A DNA stretch of 64,000 nucleotides from an uncultured Clostridia bacterium (GTDB taxonomy: Bacteria; Bacillota; Clostridia; Christensenellales; UBA1242). How positions within the stretch are numbered: position 1 is the stretch's first letter; every line of letters starts with the position of its first letter. Location of the stretch: NCBI GenBank assembly GCA_944372335.1, contig CALVYQ010000002.1:65159-129158 (forward strand). Direction: 5' to 3'. The translations under genes were made by a program, and so were the position numbers. This document shows, one piece after another, positions 3,033 through 9,185 of the stretch. Under the pieces are notes generated by a model. The model searched no databases and had not been told where the DNA came from. It worked only from the letters and a program-made list of their open reading frames with translations.

Positions 3033-4013
3033 TTATACTCCAACCAATCTTTTACCAATTTCTATTCCAATATATTGAAGAACATCTACAACAACTGAAT
3101 TGCCAAACTGTTTATAAGCTTGATTTTTATTTTTAGCCATAATGTAGGTGTCTGGGAATCCCATTAGACGAGCACATTCTCTCTGGTGTAGTCTTCTTGG
3201 TTTTCCATTTATAAGATAGCCGCCTGTTTTTGCAAAAACACCACCACCATTAGCAGACAATGTAATGGCAATTCCTTTTGTGCTGTAGATTCTTTCGCCT
3301 TGTCCACCTTTATTTACAATACCTAGACGAATAGATTTGTTGCTAGTTTTATTATCTGTTTCATTGTTATAGTAAGTGTCTGGCCTATCTACATAGAGAT
3401 TAAAAACAAGCTTCTCATCATTTAATAAGAAATCTTCAACATGTTTTTGTAGTGCAAAAGCTTTTGGGAAAGAAAATTCTTTTACATCTAAATCTTTTCT
3501 AAAACAAACCATATATATTCTTTCTCTTTTTTGTGGAATACCATAATCAGTTGCATTTAGAACTTTATAATTGAATGTATATCCTAATTCTTCCATAGTA
3601 GCCTTAACAACTTCTAATGTTTTCCCGTTGTCGTGTGTTGCGAAATTTTTAACGTTTTCCATAAATACAACTTTTGGTTTTTTAGCTTTTACTATTCGTG
3701 CAACATCAAAAAACAGGGTTCCACGACTATCTTCAAAACCACGTTGTTTTCCACTAATTGAAAAAGCTTGACATGGAAAACCTGCACATAAAATATCGTG
3801 CTTTGGAATTTGATTTTCATCAACTTTAGTTATGTCACCATCTGGGATTTCTCCAAAATTTTCACAGTAAACTTCTTGTGCAAACTTATCCCATTCACTG
3901 GAATAAACGCACTTTGCTCCTAATGATTCCAATGCTAATCTGAATCCACCCAATCCAGCGAATAAATCAATAAATGTATAATTTTTTAGTGTTTGTTTTT
4001 CAATTTTAATCAT
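3033..4013 (-). CDS. M.HhaI-like DNA (cytosine-5-)-methyltransferase (predicted GCGC)
   Basis: This 326-aa protein aligns with M.HhaI from end to end as I remember it. The catalytic Cys of the GFPCQAFSISGKQ motif is residue 81 and the ENV Glu is residue 119, the same numbers as in M.HhaI. Motif I is FIDLFAGLGGFRLALES and motif VIII is PQKRERIYMV. The recognition-domain block GGQGERIYSTKGIAITLSA followed by GGYLINGKPRRLH is the same as M.HhaI with few changes, and motif X is YKQFGNSVVVDVLQYI. It should methylate the inner cytosine of GCGC and protect against the endonuclease at 1957-2748. It is transcribed from its own promoter toward that gene, with the 96-aa gene following after 1 nt. Expression may be autoregulated by methylation of its promoter. 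Confidence 0.93.
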   Translation of the reverse strand: MIKIEKQTLKNYTFIDLFAGLGGFRLALESLGAKCVYSSEWDKFAQEVYCENFGEIPDGDITKVDENQIPKHDILCAGFPCQAFSISGKQRGFEDSRGTLFFDVARIVKAKKPKVVFMENVKNFATHDNGKTLEVVKATMEELGYTFNYKVLNATDYGIPQKRERIYMVCFRKDLDVKEFSFPKAFALQKHVEDFLLNDEKLVFNLYVDRPDTYYNNETDNKTSNKSIRLGIVNKGGQGERIYSTKGIAITLSANGGGVFAKTGGYLINGKPRRLHQRECARLMGFPDTYIMAKNKNQAYKQFGNSVVVDVLQYIGIEIGKRLVGV

Positions 4014-4034
4014 AGACTATCCTTTAATTTTAAA

Positions 4035-4064
4035 ATTATAGCGCATAGCGCTAAAACATGTCAA
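4035..4064 (-). promoter_or_regulatory. Promoter of the M.HhaI-like gene with two GCGC sites in the spacer
   Basis: On the minus strand TTGACA (4064-4059) and TATAAT (4040-4035) are separated by 18 nt. The spacer contains AGCGC-TAT-GCGCT, a perfect inverted repeat that holds two GCGC tetranucleotides (4041-4044 and 4048-4051). These are the predicted recognition sites of the enzyme encoded downstream, in otherwise very AT-rich DNA. Confidence 0.8.
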
Positions 4065-4119
4065 TTAATTTTATATAAACAAAGTAGGTTCAATAGTATT
4101 AAACTCGATTTTTTATATT

Positions 4120-4688
4120 GTTGAAAAATTTTTGTCGCGTGTTCAAATGGTGAACACGCGGGATTGTTATAATTTGGGTGAAAAAGTTAAAAAATATTTT
4201 TCGCTGGTTCAAATGGTGAGCCAGCGAAAGTTTTAGAATTAAGTTAGAAAAATCAAAAAAACTTTTCTCGTTGTATCAAATGGTGATACAGCGACAGTAG
4301 TAAAATTCTAATGAAAAATCAAAAAACTTTTTTCGCTGCACACAATGGGTGTGCCGCGAGAATTGTAAGATTAATGTGAAAATATTTTTCCGTTTGACCA
4401 AACGGTGGTCAAGCGACAATGCAATAATATGCATGAAAAGATAAGAACTTTTATTGCATGGAAAAATGTAGTGAATGCGACTTTGTTAAAATTTGCTTGA
4501 GAAAGTTGAGAAAATATTTTTCGCAGGGACAAATGGTGCCCCTACGAGAACTGTAAAATTTAGATATAAAATCTTTTCCCCGCATTATCAAATGGTGATA
4601 ATGCGATTATGTAAAAATATATATGAAAAGTTTAAAAACTTTTCCCGCAAAGACAAATGGTGTCCACGCGAGAATGGTAAATTTATTT
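4120..4688 (+). repeat. Tandem array of nine covarying hairpin repeats
   Basis: Nine 25-nt modules start at 4136, 4202, 4269, 4334, 4391, 4455, 4522, 4581 and 4646, giving spacings of 57-67 nt. Each reads as a 9-nt arm, a 7-nt loop and a 9-nt complementary arm. The loop is AAATGGT in six copies, AAACGGT in one, CAATGGG in one and AAATGTA in a degenerate sixth copy. The outer pairs are usually CG...CG and the closing pair C-G. The stem interiors all differ but remain complementary, including T-G wobbles in copies 2, 3 and 5. Copies 7 and 9 have interior mismatches. Most copies are preceded by an A/T-only imperfect hairpin (GAAAA...TTTTC) and followed about 10 nt later by a TGTAAAAT-like element. 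No protein-coding signal is convincing here. Function is unknown. Confidence 0.85.
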
Positions 4689-4691
4689 TAA

Positions 4692-4710
4692 AAGGAGGTG
4701 TGAAATGTAA
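4692..4710 (+). other. Strong ribosome binding site with an immediate start-stop (ATG TAA)
   Basis: AAGGAGG (4692-4698) is spaced 6 nt from ATG at 4705, which is directly followed by TAA. The next gene has its own AAAGGAG site and ATG at 4758. This could be a minimal start-stop element in the leader, or the relic of a lost gene start. Confidence 0.4.
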
Positions 4711-4757
4711 AATTAAAACTAAAAACAAAAACAAATAAAAATTAAAAGGAGAATAAA

Positions 4758-5240
4758 ATGAAAAAGATTGATACAAGTAAACTTATGGAAGTAAAGCTTA
4801 GGATTTATAGTTATGGAACAATTGAAAGGTTGAGTAAATGTTTTGAAAAGCACAAGGCCGATTTTAGAAACAAAAACGAATTTCTTGTTCATGTTATTAC
4901 AAATGGTTTGGATATTTTAGAATTGCAAGATGAGAATTTTAAAGATTACTATCAAAAAATGGAGAATATATCAGAGAAGATAACACACTTTGAAAATTAC
5001 TTATCAGTTAAAGAAAATATGTATATTCAAGATTTGAAAATGATAAATGTTCAACAAATATTTATAGAAAAATTATTGTCAAGAATATATAATTTGGTTC
5101 TTGCTCATGATGATGAAAGAACATTGCAAGCAAGATATGTTGAAGCTGGAATGTATGACAGATTGCCCGAAGGATTGCAGGAACTAAAAAATGAATATTT
5201 AAAGGCAATTGGGATAGAAGAAGATAAAAATGATGACTGA
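4758..5240 (+). CDS. 160-aa protein of unknown function downstream of the hairpin array
   Basis: ATG 4758 has AAAGGAG 9 nt upstream. Residues 10-50 (MEVKLRIYSYGTIERLSKCF, then KNEFLVHVITNGLDILELQ) look like a short beta strand followed by two helices. This is the general shape of ribbon-helix-helix or relaxosome accessory proteins on plasmids and conjugative elements, but the match is not specific. The middle is a long charged helix, and the C-terminus is acidic (EEDKNDD). It is the first gene after the hairpin array and is the natural candidate to bind it. A possible 26-codon reading frame overlaps its stop. No confident family assignment. Confidence 0.7.
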   Translation: MKKIDTSKLMEVKLRIYSYGTIERLSKCFEKHKADFRNKNEFLVHVITNGLDILELQDENFKDYYQKMENISEKITHFENYLSVKENMYIQDLKMINVQQIFIEKLLSRIYNLVLAHDDERTLQARYVEAGMYDRLPEGLQELKNEYLKAIGIEEDKNDD

Positions 5241-5404
5241 AATAGATAAATTTATTAGAAGCAGGATAAGGAATGGGGATATTTTGAAAAATTATGCTCG
5301 TTTTTGCTAGTAAAATAAAGCATTTTACTGGGGCAAAATAAAAACTCGCAGAATCAAAATTGATCCATTCCCCTTATGCGACAAACGTGATGCCCGTTTT
5401 CGTT
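5230..5404 (+). other. Structured intergenic segment with a possible 26-codon ORF
   Basis: A short frame starts at ATG 5230, overlaps the previous stop, and ends at TAG 5308-5310. It may be the remnant of a coupled downstream gene. The same DNA folds well. ATAAGGAATGG (5266-5276) pairs with CCATT-CC-CCTTAT (5365-5377) around a 2-nt bulge. Inside this, AGTAAAAT (5309-5316) pairs perfectly with ATTTTACT (5322-5329). A further CGACAAACG...CGTTTTCG hairpin lies at 5379-5402. It could be a leader RNA, a small RNA or a DNA site such as a transfer origin. Nothing identifies which. Confidence 0.4.
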
Positions 5405-5439
5405 ATTTATTAAGAATTTAACAAACAAAAGGAGTAAAA

Positions 5440-5634
5440 ATGAAGAAAATAAAATATGCAAAAAACATACAAAGTATAAATCTTAAAACAAATAAAGAAA
5501 GAAAAGGACAAGCCAAATTTTATCCGTCAGTAACCAAAAGTGTTGGCGAAACTTTAAGCAATTATTTAACTGATTACATTAAAAAAGATGGAGATATAAA
5601 TAATCTCACACCTGATAATGTATTTAAAAAGTAA
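5440..5634 (+). CDS. 64-aa basic protein of unknown function
   Basis: ATG 5440 follows AAAAGGAG at 7-nt spacing. The N-terminal half is lysine-rich; the second half (TKSVGETLSNYLTDYIKK) is predicted helical, which suggests a small nucleic-acid-binding or accessory protein. I recognise no family. It ends 2 bp from the convergent stop of the DUF6161-like gene, so transcripts from both sides meet here with no visible terminator. Confidence 0.55.
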   Translation: MKKIKYAKNIQSINLKTNKERKGQAKFYPSVTKSVGETLSNYLTDYIKKDGDINNLTPDNVFKK

Positions 5635-5636
5635 TG

Positions 5637-6866
5637 TTATTTAGATTTATCTTTTTCGAGTAAATCAGTAATATTTGCTGTCATTGATGGAGTGGATTCT
5701 CCTTTTAGCAATCCTGTATCTGAACGACTAAATAATGAATTTATAATTAAAGCTCGTTCTTTTTCGGTTATTCCTTTTGATTCCATAAGTGATAGATAGA
5801 AATATGATAATTGTTCTCTTTCACGGGCGTCTCTTGAAAGATGAAATGAACTTAATGATAGTTTTATTGTAATTCTTAATACATAAATTGCTACACTTGT
5901 TATTACTGTTAATAATGCAGTGTCTTTTACAAGGTCTAACCAATAAGCATTTTTATCGAAAAGATTTGGCGTAAATATTATTAATAGAGCAAGTCCTGAT
6001 ATAATGGCAATTGCTAATAATGCACTTACTCCAAGCCAAATGCCGCCACTTTTAGTGTATGACTTTGACATTTTCTTCCAATATTCAGCCGGTTTAGAAA
6101 GTTTTAATTTTTCTTGATATAAATTTTCTAAGTTAGTTAACTCTTGTTCTTTTTGTGTTTTATATTCTAAGAATTGTTGCTTTTGTTCTTCTATTTCTTT
6201 AAGTGTATTATTTTTAACTTCCAGAATTTCTTCTTGTTGATTATGAAACAAATTACTAGAATTTGCAACAAGTTCATTAAGTTCTTTTTCTGTTTTTTCA
6301 AATGCTTCTTTATAAGAAAGTCCATAGTTAGAAACTAAAATTTCAATACTTTGTATTACATTTTTATATTCCATTCCATAATAAAACCCTTCATGCCATT
6401 GAGGATATCCTGAGTAACTTGGGGAATTATTTGTAACAGCATCTCTAAATCCATAAAAGAAATATTGATTCCGGTCTGAGAATTTTTTAAACCATTTAGC
6501 AATATTTGTAATACTTGCGATTTGACAAGTATTAATGAACATATCCACAGAGTTTCTAAATAATCTTTTATTGTCATCTGTTTCTTCTGAGTTTCTTAAA
6601 TTATTAATGTTTGATAACGAACTTGATATTGTAGAACTATAATTTGAAACAATAATATTATTTGAAACTTTTTCGTAATTCCAAAATTTTTGTTCCGTTT
6701 CCAAATATTGAACAAATTGTTTTGTTGTTTTTATTGTTTTATTCGGTAAAGCTTGTTTATCAATAATACGATAATTATCAGGAAGTCTTTTAATTATAAC
6801 TTCGTTTTCTTTAAAATACCTATCCATCCATTCTGGATAAACAATCTTTTCTTGCGTTTCTACCAT
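5637..6866 (-). CDS. DUF6161-like membrane protein with coiled coil
   Basis: The 409-aa protein has an acidic N-terminal region. A strongly predicted coiled coil follows (about residues 190-255, rich in Glu, Lys, Gln and Leu, e.g. LKEIEEQKQQFLEYKTQKEQ). Two hydrophobic helices come next (GIWLGVSALLAIAIISGLAL and TALLTVITSVAIYVLRITIK), then a cytosolic tail with FHLSRDAREREQLSYFYLSL and SLFSRSDTGLLKGE. The tail pattern matches my memory of DUF6161 proteins, which occur in prophages and islands and have no established activity. It sits 1 bp downstream of the XRE repressor gene on the same strand, so the two are probably co-transcribed. A defence or superinfection-exclusion role is plausible but inferred. 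Confidence 0.75.
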   Translation of the reverse strand: MVETQEKIVYPEWMDRYFKENEVIIKRLPDNYRIIDKQALPNKTIKTTKQFVQYLETEQKFWNYEKVSNNIIVSNYSSTISSSLSNINNLRNSEETDDNKRLFRNSVDMFINTCQIASITNIAKWFKKFSDRNQYFFYGFRDAVTNNSPSYSGYPQWHEGFYYGMEYKNVIQSIEILVSNYGLSYKEAFEKTEKELNELVANSSNLFHNQQEEILEVKNNTLKEIEEQKQQFLEYKTQKEQELTNLENLYQEKLKLSKPAEYWKKMSKSYTKSGGIWLGVSALLAIAIISGLALLIIFTPNLFDKNAYWLDLVKDTALLTVITSVAIYVLRITIKLSLSSFHLSRDAREREQLSYFYLSLMESKGITEKERALIINSLFSRSDTGLLKGESTPSMTANITDLLEKDKSK

Positions 6867-7177: not shown

Positions 7178-7378
7178 ATGAAAAATACAATTAAAACTGA
7201 ATTGATAGAAAACTTTATAAAAGAAAACAACTTATCTAAAAGCAAGTTTTGTAAGATGTGCAAAATTAGTCAAAGCACATTAAATAAAATAATGACTAAT
7301 AGTGAGAATTTTAGAATAATTGCACTTTTTAAAATTGCAAGAGTTTTAAAAATTCAAGTTTTTGAGATGTTTAATTAA
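7178..7378 (+). CDS. Small Cro/XRE-like HTH protein
   Basis: This 66-aa protein is a compact helix-turn-helix domain (IKENNLSKSKFCKMCKISQS followed by TLNKIM, then a second helical pair ending KIQVFEMFN). It starts at ATG 7178, only 9 nt after the third operator, and precedes the recombinase start by 13 nt, so both are on one transcript. By position it is the Cro or excision-activator counterpart of the divergent XRE repressor. That role is inferred from layout. Confidence 0.85.
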   Translation: MKNTIKTELIENFIKENNLSKSKFCKMCKISQSTLNKIMTNSENFRIIALFKIARVLKIQVFEMFN

Positions 7379-7391
7379 AAGGAGTAATATT

Positions 7392-9185
7392 TTGAGTAAA
7401 AAACGAGCTGTAATATATGCGAGATTTAGTTCGCATAATCAAACTGAACAATCTATTGAAGGTCAACTTCGTGAATGTTATGCCTATGCAAAAAGAAATG
7501 GGCTTATTATTCTTAATGAATATATTGACCGAGCACTTTCTGGAACGACAGACAACCGACCACAATTCAAACAAATGATTGAAGATAGCAAGAAAGGTGA
7601 TTTTGATTTTGTTTTAGTTTATCAACTAGATAGATTTGCAAGAAATAGATACGATAGTGCCACATATAAAGCAAAGTTAAAAAAGAATGGTGTTAGAGTT
7701 CTATCTGCAAAAGAAAACATAAGTGATGATGCTAGTGGTGTTTTAATGGAAAGTGTTTTGGAAGGAATGGCAGAATATTACTCTGCCGAACTTTCACAAA
7801 AAGTTAAGCGTGGAATTAAAGAAAGTTTAATAAAAGGCAACTACATTGGTGGATATATTTTGTATGGTTTTGATGTTGTAAACAAAAAATATGTTATCAA
7901 TGAAGTCGAAAGTGAAATTGTAAGGAAAATATTTAGAAATTATGCGAATGGTAAAAAGGTAATTGAAATTGTAAATGAACTAAACAACAAAGGTCTTAAA
8001 ACAAAATATGGAAACAAGTTTAGTTTAAATATCATTGCTAAAATGATAAGAAATGAAAAGTATATTGGAATATGCAAAATGGACGATGAAATCTATACTA
8101 ATATATTCCCACCAATAATTGAAGAAAGTATATTTAAAAGGTGTAATTTAATTATGGATAATCATAAACATAGACAAAGAAAAGATAGTTTAAATGAAGA
8201 TGTATATATTTTAAGTGGCAAACTCTTTTGTGGCTATTGTGGATACCCAATGGTGGCAGAAACAGGAACAAGCAAAACTGGTGCTGTTCATAGATATTAC
8301 AAATGTTCAGGCAAGAAAAAGAAAATCACAAAATGCGATAAACATAATGTTAGAAAAGATACAATAGAAGATTTTGTTTTTGAAAAGACAAAAAAATATG
8401 TTCTTGAGCCAAATGTTATTGATACTATTGCCGAAGTTGTTGTGAATAGATTTAATAGTGAATTATCTAACAATGTAGTTTTTACAAAACTACAAGAAGA
8501 ATTAAAAGAAAAGAATAGAGCAATAGACTCTATTCTAAATGCAATGGAAAAAGGAATAATAACAAATTCAACACAGGAAAGACTTATGAAACTTGAAAAT
8601 GAAAAAGCAATACTTGAAGACAAAGTTGAATATGAACAAAATCATCAAATAAAACCACTAGAAAAGGAACAAATTGTAAATTTCTTAAAAGTATATGCAA
8701 GGAAGCAGTTTGATAACAAAACTGACAAAAATGAGTTCTTTAATAATTTCATTTTAAAAGTATTACTTTACGATGACAAAATTACAATAGTTTACAACAC
8801 AAGTTTAAACCCAGCAGAAGAAATATATAACCGACCAAATGATAATGATGATAACAATGACAATAGTGACAATGGAACGACTATTTATAAGAAAGAAATA
8901 GAAATTTCAGACGATGAAAATAAGGACGAAGCGTCCTTGCGTAAACTAAAAAAATTGCCGTTTGAGTTCAAACGACAATTGTTTGGCGGAGAGTTAGGGA
9001 TTCGAACCCCAGATACCTTTCGGTATGCCAGTTTTCAAGACTGGTGTAATCGACCACTCTACCAACTCTCCATATTCAACTTGACGAATTCTCAATTTTT
9101 TTACGCAAACAAATTCTTGACCACCATTCGTCAAGTGTTATTTTATCATATTAATATACATGATGTCAACATTTTATCAGTTTAA
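7392..9185 (+). CDS. Large serine recombinase (integrase) whose frame runs through a tRNA gene
   Basis: The product is a serine site-specific recombinase that integrates and excises the element. The N-terminal resolvase domain has YARFSS with catalytic Ser13 and the YQLDRFARNR motif. Next come a recombinase domain (GGYILYGFDV..., about residues 150-250), a zinc beta ribbon with CGYCGYPM and KCSGKKKKITKCDKH, a coiled coil, and an acidic N/D-rich linker. The TTG start at 7392 is preferred: AAAGGAG lies 7 nt upstream and no site precedes the in-frame ATG at 7362. The last 67 or so residues (from GGELGIRTPDTFRY on) are encoded by the antisense of tRNA-Ser and the DNA beyond it, so they are a product of integration. 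The excised form should have a different C-terminus. Confidence 0.93.
   Translation: MSKKRAVIYARFSSHNQTEQSIEGQLRECYAYAKRNGLIILNEYIDRALSGTTDNRPQFKQMIEDSKKGDFDFVLVYQLDRFARNRYDSATYKAKLKKNGVRVLSAKENISDDASGVLMESVLEGMAEYYSAELSQKVKRGIKESLIKGNYIGGYILYGFDVVNKKYVINEVESEIVRKIFRNYANGKKVIEIVNELNNKGLKTKYGNKFSLNIIAKMIRNEKYIGICKMDDEIYTNIFPPIIEESIFKRCNLIMDNHKHRQRKDSLNEDVYILSGKLFCGYCGYPMVAETGTSKTGAVHRYYKCSGKKKKITKCDKHNVRKDTIEDFVFEKTKKYVLEPNVIDTIAEVVVNRFNSELSNNVVFTKLQEELKEKNRAIDSILNAMEKGIITNSTQERLMKLENEKAILEDKVEYEQNHQIKPLEKEQIVNFLKVYARKQFDNKTDKNEFFNNFILKVLLYDDKITIVYNTSLNPAEEIYNRPNDNDDNNDNSDNGTTIYKKEIEISDDENKDEASLRKLKKLPFEFKRQLFGGELGIRTPDTFRYASFQDWCNRPLYQLSIFNLTNSQFFYANKFLTTIRQVLFYHINIHDVNILSV
8948..8980 (-). 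terminator. Terminator of tRNA-Ser(UGA), inside the recombinase frame
   Basis: On the minus strand, just past the tRNA CCA end, AATTG-T-CGTTTGA pairs with TCAAACG-G-CAATT across a tiny loop and is followed by a run of T. It lies on the element side of the junction, so the element supplies the tRNA with a new terminator. Confidence 0.75.
8981..9010. mobile_element. Right attachment junction (attR) of the integrated element
   Basis: The recombinase frame enters the 3' end of the intact tRNA-Ser gene here. The element extends leftward beyond the window: no second copy of the tRNA 3' end is found between 1 and 8980, so the left end is not in view. The exact crossover dinucleotide cannot be read. 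Confidence 0.6.
8984..9071 (-). tRNA. tRNA-Ser (anticodon UGA)
   Basis: A full cloverleaf is readable on the minus strand. The acceptor stem is GGAGAGT/ACTCTCC with discriminator G and encoded CCA. The anticodon stem is CCAGT/ACTGG with loop CTTGAAA (anticodon TGA, plus-strand positions 9035-9037). A long variable arm (CATACCGAAAGGTATC) is typical of serine tRNAs, and the T arm is GGGTTCGAATCCC. Its 3' end is the integration target of the adjacent serine recombinase. Confidence 0.97.
9079..9169 (-). promoter_or_regulatory. tRNA-Ser promoter and leader with 11-bp inverted repeat
   Basis: On the minus strand TTGACA (9169-9164), an 18-nt spacer and TGATAAAAT (-10 at 9145-9140) drive the tRNA. 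The 5' leader holds a perfect 11-bp inverted repeat, ACTTGACGAAT (9079-9089) and ATTCGTCAAGT (9126-9136). The inner part also forms a CTTGAC...GTCAAG hairpin (9116-9135). Confidence 0.7.

Follow-up and report, generated by a model that had tools for sequence, protein, structure and literature searches.

What would a bacterial genome do with nine inverted repeats in a row that share one scaffold, no two of them with the same stem? The question is raised by a stretch of 64,000 nt from an uncultured Clostridia bacterium (the window), in which an earlier note had picked out an array of hairpins and read it as the mark of selection on a folded RNA or single-stranded DNA. Our analysis points elsewhere: the array is probably a set of tandem promoters with operators for the regulators of many helper elements, placed as an OR gate before a mobility gene.

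Anatomy of the array

Nine units lie at 4116-4694, all in one orientation on the plus strand, and each consists of an A/T tract, a 25-nt inverted repeat of 9-7-9 form and a -10-like hexamer. Unit 1 (4116-4184) has its repeat at 4136-4160 (CGCGTGTTC/GAACACGCG) and the -10-like hexamer TATAAT at 4168-4173, and the same plan is followed by unit 2 (4182-4250; repeat 4202-4226, CGCTGGTTC/GAGCCAGCG; -10-like box 4234-4239), unit 3 (4249-4317; repeat 4269-4293, CGTTGTATC/GATACAGCG; box 4301-4306), unit 4 (4314-4382; repeat 4334-4358, CGCTGCACA/TGTGCCGCG; box 4366-4371) and unit 5 (4371-4439; repeat 4391-4415, CGTTTGACC/GGTCAAGCG; box 4423-4428). Unit 6 (4435-4503) is decayed, with a model score of 21 as against 58-77 for the other eight. 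It is followed by unit 7 (4502-4570; repeat 4522-4546, CGCAGGGAC/GCCCCTACG; box 4554-4559), unit 8 (4561-4629; repeat 4581-4605, CGCATTATC/GATAATGCG; box 4613-4618) and unit 9 (4626-4694; repeat 4646-4670, CGCAAAGAC/GTCCACGCG; box 4678-4683). From start to start the units are 66, 67, 65, 57, 64, 67, 59 and 65 nt apart and, with G-T pairs allowed, units 1 to 9 keep 9, 9, 9, 8, 9, 6, 7, 9 and 6 of their nine stem positions paired.

This agrees with what the earlier note had described, namely nine modules at spacings of 57-67 nt with stems that all differ. The loop, said to be mostly AAATGGT, has that sequence in six of the nine units (1, 2, 3, 7, 8 and 9) and reads AAACGGT in unit 5 and CAATGGG in unit 4. 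Real too are the A/T box that precedes the repeat and the TGTAAAAT-like box that follows, of which the second now reads as the -10 hexamer.

Covariation of the stems

Selection on the stems, with pairing kept by compensatory change, was the central claim of the first description; the stems do look selected, and they covary strongly. In a gapless alignment of 19 units, made up of eight of the nine window units (unit 6 left out), four of the five listed units of another array and seven single units, 94.7% of stem cells are paired as against 67.2% in shuffles, and the covariation score is 0.66 as against 0.18; for both values, none of 500 shuffles came as high. That seven of the nine stem pairs vary on both sides is a weaker sign, reached by 35 of the 500 shuffles. 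We also agree that the stems act as individual identities on one scaffold and that the array is not a recent tandem duplication.

A folded strand would account for such covariation, and would favour G.T over A.C mismatches, which a double-stranded dyad would not. Among 103 distinct stems, taken from units scanned by flanks and loop only, 57 mismatches are G.T and 47 A.C (p=0.38), as in double-stranded dyad sites, so that the T-G wobbles, real as they are, do not point to folding as had been supposed. Each repeat also lies upstream of its own -10 box, and a transcript from that unit would therefore lack the repeat, whereas transcripts from earlier units would include it. An Rfam scan of 3900-5700 returned no family at its gathering score, the most bits inside the array going to Plastid-rps12 (23 vs 78 needed) and Fusobacteriales-1 (22 vs 52.1). 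Type III toxin-antitoxin repeats and integron attC sites were likewise thought of and set aside. With stems that, as set out below, track the recognition helix of a winged-helix protein, a folded RNA or single-stranded DNA becomes very improbable.

Distribution of arrays

Homologous arrays were found by a covariance-model search, the check proposed with the first description. The model R1 (E≤0.01) has matches in 62 of the family's 309 genomes, among them that of the window, and at E≤0.001 it matches three of 291 sampled genomes of the class, all in the window's genus. Loci were drawn from 44 of the 62 genomes and were picked among the matches listed; the 69 sources comprise 58 stretches so picked, one to the left of the window, the window itself and nine loci with homologues of the 160-aa protein encoded behind its array. 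Units scoring at least 35, to which the stem counts below are confined, number 206 in 52 array loci, five with one unit and 47 with two to eight, and the largest array has 14 units at a looser score cut. None of the 52 loci has units on both strands. Half-sites are never repeated inside an array (0 vs 21.7 expected), a non-redundancy that is not significant with one array taken per lineage (eight lineages, P=0.13); 32 of the 47 arrays belong to one lineage. A description of such an array was not found in the literature searched, mostly by title and the opening of the abstract.

Promoter-like signature and the genes behind the arrays

A hexamer with at least four of the six TATAAT bases stands at a fixed place in 184 of 185 distinct array units, a count partly favoured by construction since the models that picked the units contain -10 columns and seven helper units. 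The stricter pattern TAnnnT is found at the -10 place in 155 of the 185, and positions 59-63, which come after the hexamer, hold 0.00-0.14 bits. A consensus scan of 4050-5500 for paired -35 and -10 boxes gave 8 as against 8.1 in shuffles; the lack of an excess fits activator dependence and fits equally the absence of any promoter.

In 30 of 34 arrays a ribosome-binding site and an ORF on the same strand lie within 300 nt, as against 260 of 1700 random positions. The four arrays with no adjacent ORF are L077, L091, L106 and L112; in L091 and L106 a gene stands at 255 and 212 nt once lower-scoring last units are counted. The likely output gene in the window encodes a protein of 160 aa (4758-5240, plus strand), and between it and the last unit lies a ribosome-binding site with an ATG-TAA start-stop mini-ORF (4690-4710, plus strand). 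Such a mini-ORF is seen behind many arrays, and L076, L083, L091 and L128 have two each.

The genes behind the arrays, whose kinds were read from the gene listing with families tested for some, encode small accessory-like proteins, alone as in the window or together with MobL-type relaxases, or else Rep-like proteins. Sixteen array loci encode their own MobL relaxase, and the motif HxxT[DE]N[KR]HIH is kept in the aligned ones. Of two Rep-like proteins compared with PHROG, one weakly matches replication initiation. The Rep-like gene of L084 has an integrase behind it and type III restriction genes ahead of it.

The same anatomy could serve the opposite sign of control, the units being promoters that helper regulators switch off in the manner of Cro. 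The repeat overlaps the core promoter, with its centre at about -33 if the -10 is rightly placed, and this is a common position for repressors. Against it stands an argument of logic: with nine promoters and nine repressors, one helper would hardly alter the output, and there would be no reason to collect operators. We regard repression as unlikely.

Single units and MobL helpers

In 12 loci exactly one unit stands ahead of a small gene for a winged-helix (HTH) protein, an accessory gene and the gene of a MobL-type relaxase, the relaxases being called by an HMM built from such relaxases. Three of the twelve, L020, L028 and L029, were checked against Pfam MobL and score 86-99 bits (cut-off 28.5), while falling below the NCBIfam MobP2 cut-off (90-102 vs 200). 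One helper checked, L098, has a coupling protein (T4CP), a VirB4-like ATPase and a pilin, and from their gene content the helpers read as MobL conjugative elements. Two further single-unit contigs (L078 and L110) end inside or soon after the HTH gene. Throughout, in 14 of 14 single-unit loci, 48-56 nt separate the end of the repeat from the regulator's start codon.

Relatives of the HTH protein (E≤1e-8) occur in 24 of 309 genomes of the family and in 25 of 396 of the order, many of the latter weak. Many of these loci have a repeat, a -10 and a ribosome-binding site before the gene, among them the distant L152, L162, L163, L174 and L179; a 9-7-9 repeat was not seen in 13 of 52 regulator-like loci, mostly weak relatives at the level of the order, and doubtful in several more. 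No relative at the same threshold was found in the window's own genome, which is 85% complete, and a search of plasmids with the L098 regulator gave no match.

A sigma-region-4-like gene is present in 11 of the 12 single-unit MobL loci. It is the second gene of the helper operon in L098, L108 and others, and its product, which resembles sigma-70 region 4, is possibly a partner of the HTH regulator. When the loop, which lies at the -35 position, was compared with this protein across 19 loci, no signal appeared at the recognition helix, the best column lying elsewhere. The gap between the sigma-like and accessory genes of helpers such as L086, L087 and L098 contains a similar non-coding stretch with a TATA...GAAGGGG-like motif, another candidate for an oriT or a promoter.

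Regulators in phages

Six further HTH relatives came from IMG/VR, and a like unit precedes the regulator in all six contigs. Terminase is encoded in five of the six and portal in four, and a MobL relaxase in none, with the proviso that these records may be fragments. The regulator of L198 is preceded by a LexA/S24 repressor gene, from which small ORFs separate it, and is followed by a gene for an SNF2 helicase. Inspection by eye shows an ORF resembling this helicase behind the regulator in each of the other five contigs, and one resembling the repressor ahead of it in L196, L199 and L200; the contigs L197 and L201 end a short way upstream. The operon looks to be of an early type, and the phages that carry the regulator are apparently temperate, a word that leans mainly on the repressor gene seen in L198, since a tyrosine integrase (PF00589) is found in one contig of six. 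The named phage PV036446.1 has a distant relative of the regulator (28% identical), with a repeat and TATATT before the gene.

The unit is therefore not confined to relaxase-bearing helpers and their passengers, and this bears on a further explanation, that each unit imitates the transfer origin of another conjugative element, as relatives of pWBG749 are imitated by staphylococcal plasmids. A unit does head the relaxase operon in 12 of the 14 single-unit loci, and there is a close precedent in which several oriT mimics go with a small specificity factor (PMC8136818, in the excerpt cited). A like unit before phage regulators nonetheless means that the unit does not serve in general as an origin of transfer. 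Also against mimicry are the 16 array loci that encode their own relaxase, and the arrays conserve the -10-like box after the repeat while losing the GTCAA that lies further on in helpers. In pLS20, moreover, accessory genes lie between oriT and relaxase according to the excerpt cited (PMC5675868). Origin mimicry has lost ground because of the -10-like boxes, the adjacent genes and the units before phage regulators, and we now think it quite unlikely.

Putative operators shared by arrays and helpers

The reading of the units as promoters with borrowed operators asks that their stems resemble those beside the regulators, and many do. Of 412 array arms, 222 are identical to the half-site of a regulator. 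Among 99 distinct array stems, 23 differ by at most one base from one of nine helper stems, compared with a mean of 2.8 and a maximum of 9 in 2000 runs with shuffled base pairs, and exact matches number six as against 0.64; both counts are partly favoured by the helper units in the picking models. Three of the nine helper stems, of the types TGTTATC, CTGGGAC and ATGGGTC, have no exact match in arrays. Among 76 distinct half-sites, 16 equal a regulator half-site (null mean 4.3, maximum 13 in 5000 runs). Over the flanks, a stem-matched unit resembles the helper that it matches little more than it does other helpers (0.567 vs 0.553), so the units are not just recent wholesale copies. In the arrays, operators of helper-encoded regulators thus adjoin a -10 with no -35, as far as sequence can tell.

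Within the window, both arms of units 1, 2, 3 and 8 agree with regulators, of four types in all. Unit 1 matches regulators with the helix SKMTVRR and has the same stem as helper L098; unit 2 matches SRSTVKR and has the stem of helper L121; unit 3 matches SRITVVR or SRLTVFR, with one mismatch to helper L108; and unit 8 matches SKITVHR, with one mismatch to helper L118. Units 4, 6, 7 and 9 have no exact partner: unit 4 has the orphan half-site TGCACA, and unit 7 has AGGGAC, which a single change would turn into the half-site TGGGAC, ATGGAC or ACGGAC of known regulators. AGGTTC and GTGGAC count as orphan half-sites as well.

Three orphan stems had been taken beforehand as calling for a helper, and one of them was met. 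TTGACC, which unit 5 has on both arms, occurs in 20 array loci, and the same six letters form the left half-site ahead of the later-found phage regulator of L197, whose helix is HYNTVRR; both arms match exactly in the arrays L095 and L100. The TGCACA type has no exact match in viral contigs, and the pattern CGYTTGACC occurs there in four stretches, none with a unit.

Matching operators would also be expected of a defensive decoy, in which the sites titrate and blunt regulators that phages and conjugative elements bring in, and some array elements (the window and L084) do carry restriction-modification genes. Decoys, however, have no need of a -10-like box in almost every unit or of a gene on the same strand behind 30 of 34 arrays, and a single site per regulator makes a weak sponge. 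Titration seems to us improbable.

A proposed recognition-helix code

If the regulators bind these stems, site and reader should change together. Where regulators are otherwise alike, their differences concentrate at residues 34-36 and 39, and the AF2 model of the regulator (mean pLDDT 73) places a helix at 35-48 in a winged-helix fold; its best Foldseek matches are winged-helix regulators, none at E≤0.001. Thirty regulator loci (L129-L158) were considered, of which 26 had a 9-7-9 repeat and a -10, and 23 remained after removal of duplicates. Across these 23, which include the nine regulators from which columns 35, 36 and 39 had been chosen, half-site and helix are associated with a partial Mantel value of 0.536 (0/5000 permutations), shared descent being only partly removed. 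In a scan of all 91 variable columns with divergence removed, 35 and 36 rank first and second; column 39, earlier counted in the code, is not among the 14 best. The pairings include SKMTVRR with GTGTTC, SRITVVR with TGTATC, SRSTVKR with TGGnTC, SKITVHR with ATTATC or GTTATC, and SRKTVVR with TGGGAC.

The six later-found phage regulators offer a forecast. Prediction from the nearest helix gives 4.55 mismatches of 12 as against 7.02, and none of 5000 permutations was as low, with the same reservation on shared descent. The individual fits vary, being good for L198, L199 and L200, slightly better than average for L197 and L201, and worse for L196 (7.0 vs 6.5). A natural pair is found in L098 and L108, whose relaxases are 98% identical and whose regulators differ at ten residues, all within 15-39; in the 69-nt unit, four inner operator base pairs are changed, with two other differences. 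By these comparisons the stems appear to covary with the recognition helix as dyad sites for a DNA-binding protein would.

The output gene of the window and its element

The 160-aa protein shows 27-34% identity with four accessory proteins of helpers, its C-terminal part included, and in helpers the accessory gene sits just upstream of the MobL relaxase. We infer that it is of the ribbon-helix-helix type. Pfam gave no match over the cut-off, a PDB profile search with the protein family gave hits at chance level, the AF2 model is poor (mean pLDDT 56), and searches of plasmids and phages gave no match. By analogy with pLS20 and SmpO, the protein may bind the element's own origin and recruit the relaxase of a helper.

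That this gene goes with the array, as the earlier note had asked, holds for seven of nine loci with close homologues; of the other two, L036 has no array and L037 starts inside the gene. For distant homologues, inspection by eye found no array in the upstream stretches viewed of L008, L010 and L012, and one in L013. In L036 (7086-8453) a helicase-like frame runs into residue 10 of the 160-aa protein, a junction that is either a deletion or an assembly chimera.

Behind the gene, sequence comparison picked out a long imperfect hairpin, AAGCAGGATAAG ... CATTCCCCTTAT, with a small hairpin (5259-5405, plus strand), a candidate oriT or attenuator that is also found in L098 (at 9587) and L081 (at 3464). 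With up to two mismatches it occurs in 7 of 14 single-unit loci, 10 of 36 arrays with no relaxase and 8 of 16 with one, and absences say little where, as here, many loci are incomplete. The notion that it is restricted to helpers and relaxase-less elements was withdrawn on the last of these counts.

Further along, a large serine recombinase with Resolvase, Recombinase and zinc-ribbon domains (7362-9185, plus strand) is the probable integrase of the element. The end of its frame runs into a tRNA-Ser(tga) gene on the minus strand (8984-9071), a likely attachment site. Direct repeats of the tRNA region of at least 13 nt were sought to its left and none was found, and the borders of the element were not located. 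Two C5 cytosine methyltransferase genes beside the array (986-1957 and 3033-4013) are likely restriction-modification cargo. From 30227 to 64000 the window is a single ORF of at least 11258 aa that runs off its end, with a G+C content of about 0.42 as against 0.29 at the left end of the window and, by eye, repeat-like surface-protein sequence.

Discussion

The computations support the architecture of the unit, the matching to helpers, the covariation with the recognition helix, the common orientation and the adjacency to a gene. We propose the following as the probable mechanism. Each unit would combine an A/T tract, a 25-bp inverted-repeat operator in the place of the -35 and a -10 box, and each operator would imitate that of a different winged-helix regulator, all of one family and encoded either by the first gene of relaxase operons in MobL conjugative elements or in early-type operons of phages. 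When a helper becomes active, its regulator would bind the matching unit and the gene behind the array would be transcribed, any one unit being enough. The output would be a relaxosome-accessory-like protein in the window and, elsewhere, an accessory protein with a MobL relaxase or a Rep-like protein. The element would thereby be a hitchhiker that switches on its own mobility whenever one or another helper of a panel is active. Three steps in this are inferred: binding by the regulators in the manner read, activation by them, and mobilisation as the output.

Possible, and put forward more tentatively, is a wider reading in which a single mobile element keeps a panel of operators, one for each specificity of phage or conjugative regulator, as an OR gate that launches its own transfer, with a short helix code linking site to reader. 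The contents of an array would then report which helpers a lineage has exploited, in the way that CRISPR spacers record past invaders, with opportunity in the place of immunity.

How one hitchhiker stays compatible with many unrelated helpers is largely an open question, and the answer may lie in the DNA, where successive promoters would each suit a different regulator. The contents of arrays could then predict helper ranges from sequence, and the pairing of half-site and helix offers a ready-made natural series of specificities. One shared family of regulators would also link conjugative elements and phages.

The layout of the unit resembles that in sigma appropriation by MotA/AsiA of T4, where an activator site near -30 and a strong -10 occur with no -35. 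A parallel in function would be SGI1, whose AcaCD promoters answer the master activator of a helper plasmid with no obvious -35, one of them driving excision (PMC5058578, in the excerpt cited). Our element would likewise be mobilisable, with promoters that may respond to helpers and that, by sequence, have no -35. In SGI1, as described there, the promoters answer AcaCD and a related activator, whereas here up to 14 tandem units carry different putative operators that match regulators of phages as well as of conjugative elements.

The relaxosome of pLS20 is akin in its components, since the relaxases described here match Pfam MobL and a small accessory gene lies just upstream; the excerpts cited (PMC5313138, PMC5675868) describe no array or panel of regulators and operators. 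With the oriT mimics of pWBG749 and its SmpO (PMC8136818, in part) our system shares mobilisable DNA that carries variants of a helper-specific recognition site, and a small DNA-binding protein in which a few residues shift specificity, so that similar helpers differ at both site and reader. In the portion cited, an oriT is read by a ribbon-helix-helix relaxosome factor, whereas here the site is promoter-like, would be read by a winged-helix protein and occurs in phages too.

Akin in spirit is Stl of the SaPIs, through which a satellite answers structurally unrelated proteins of different helpers (PMC6695447, in the excerpt cited). In that account one repressor binds several phage proteins, while here the same breadth would be reached with many DNA sites, one for each regulator.
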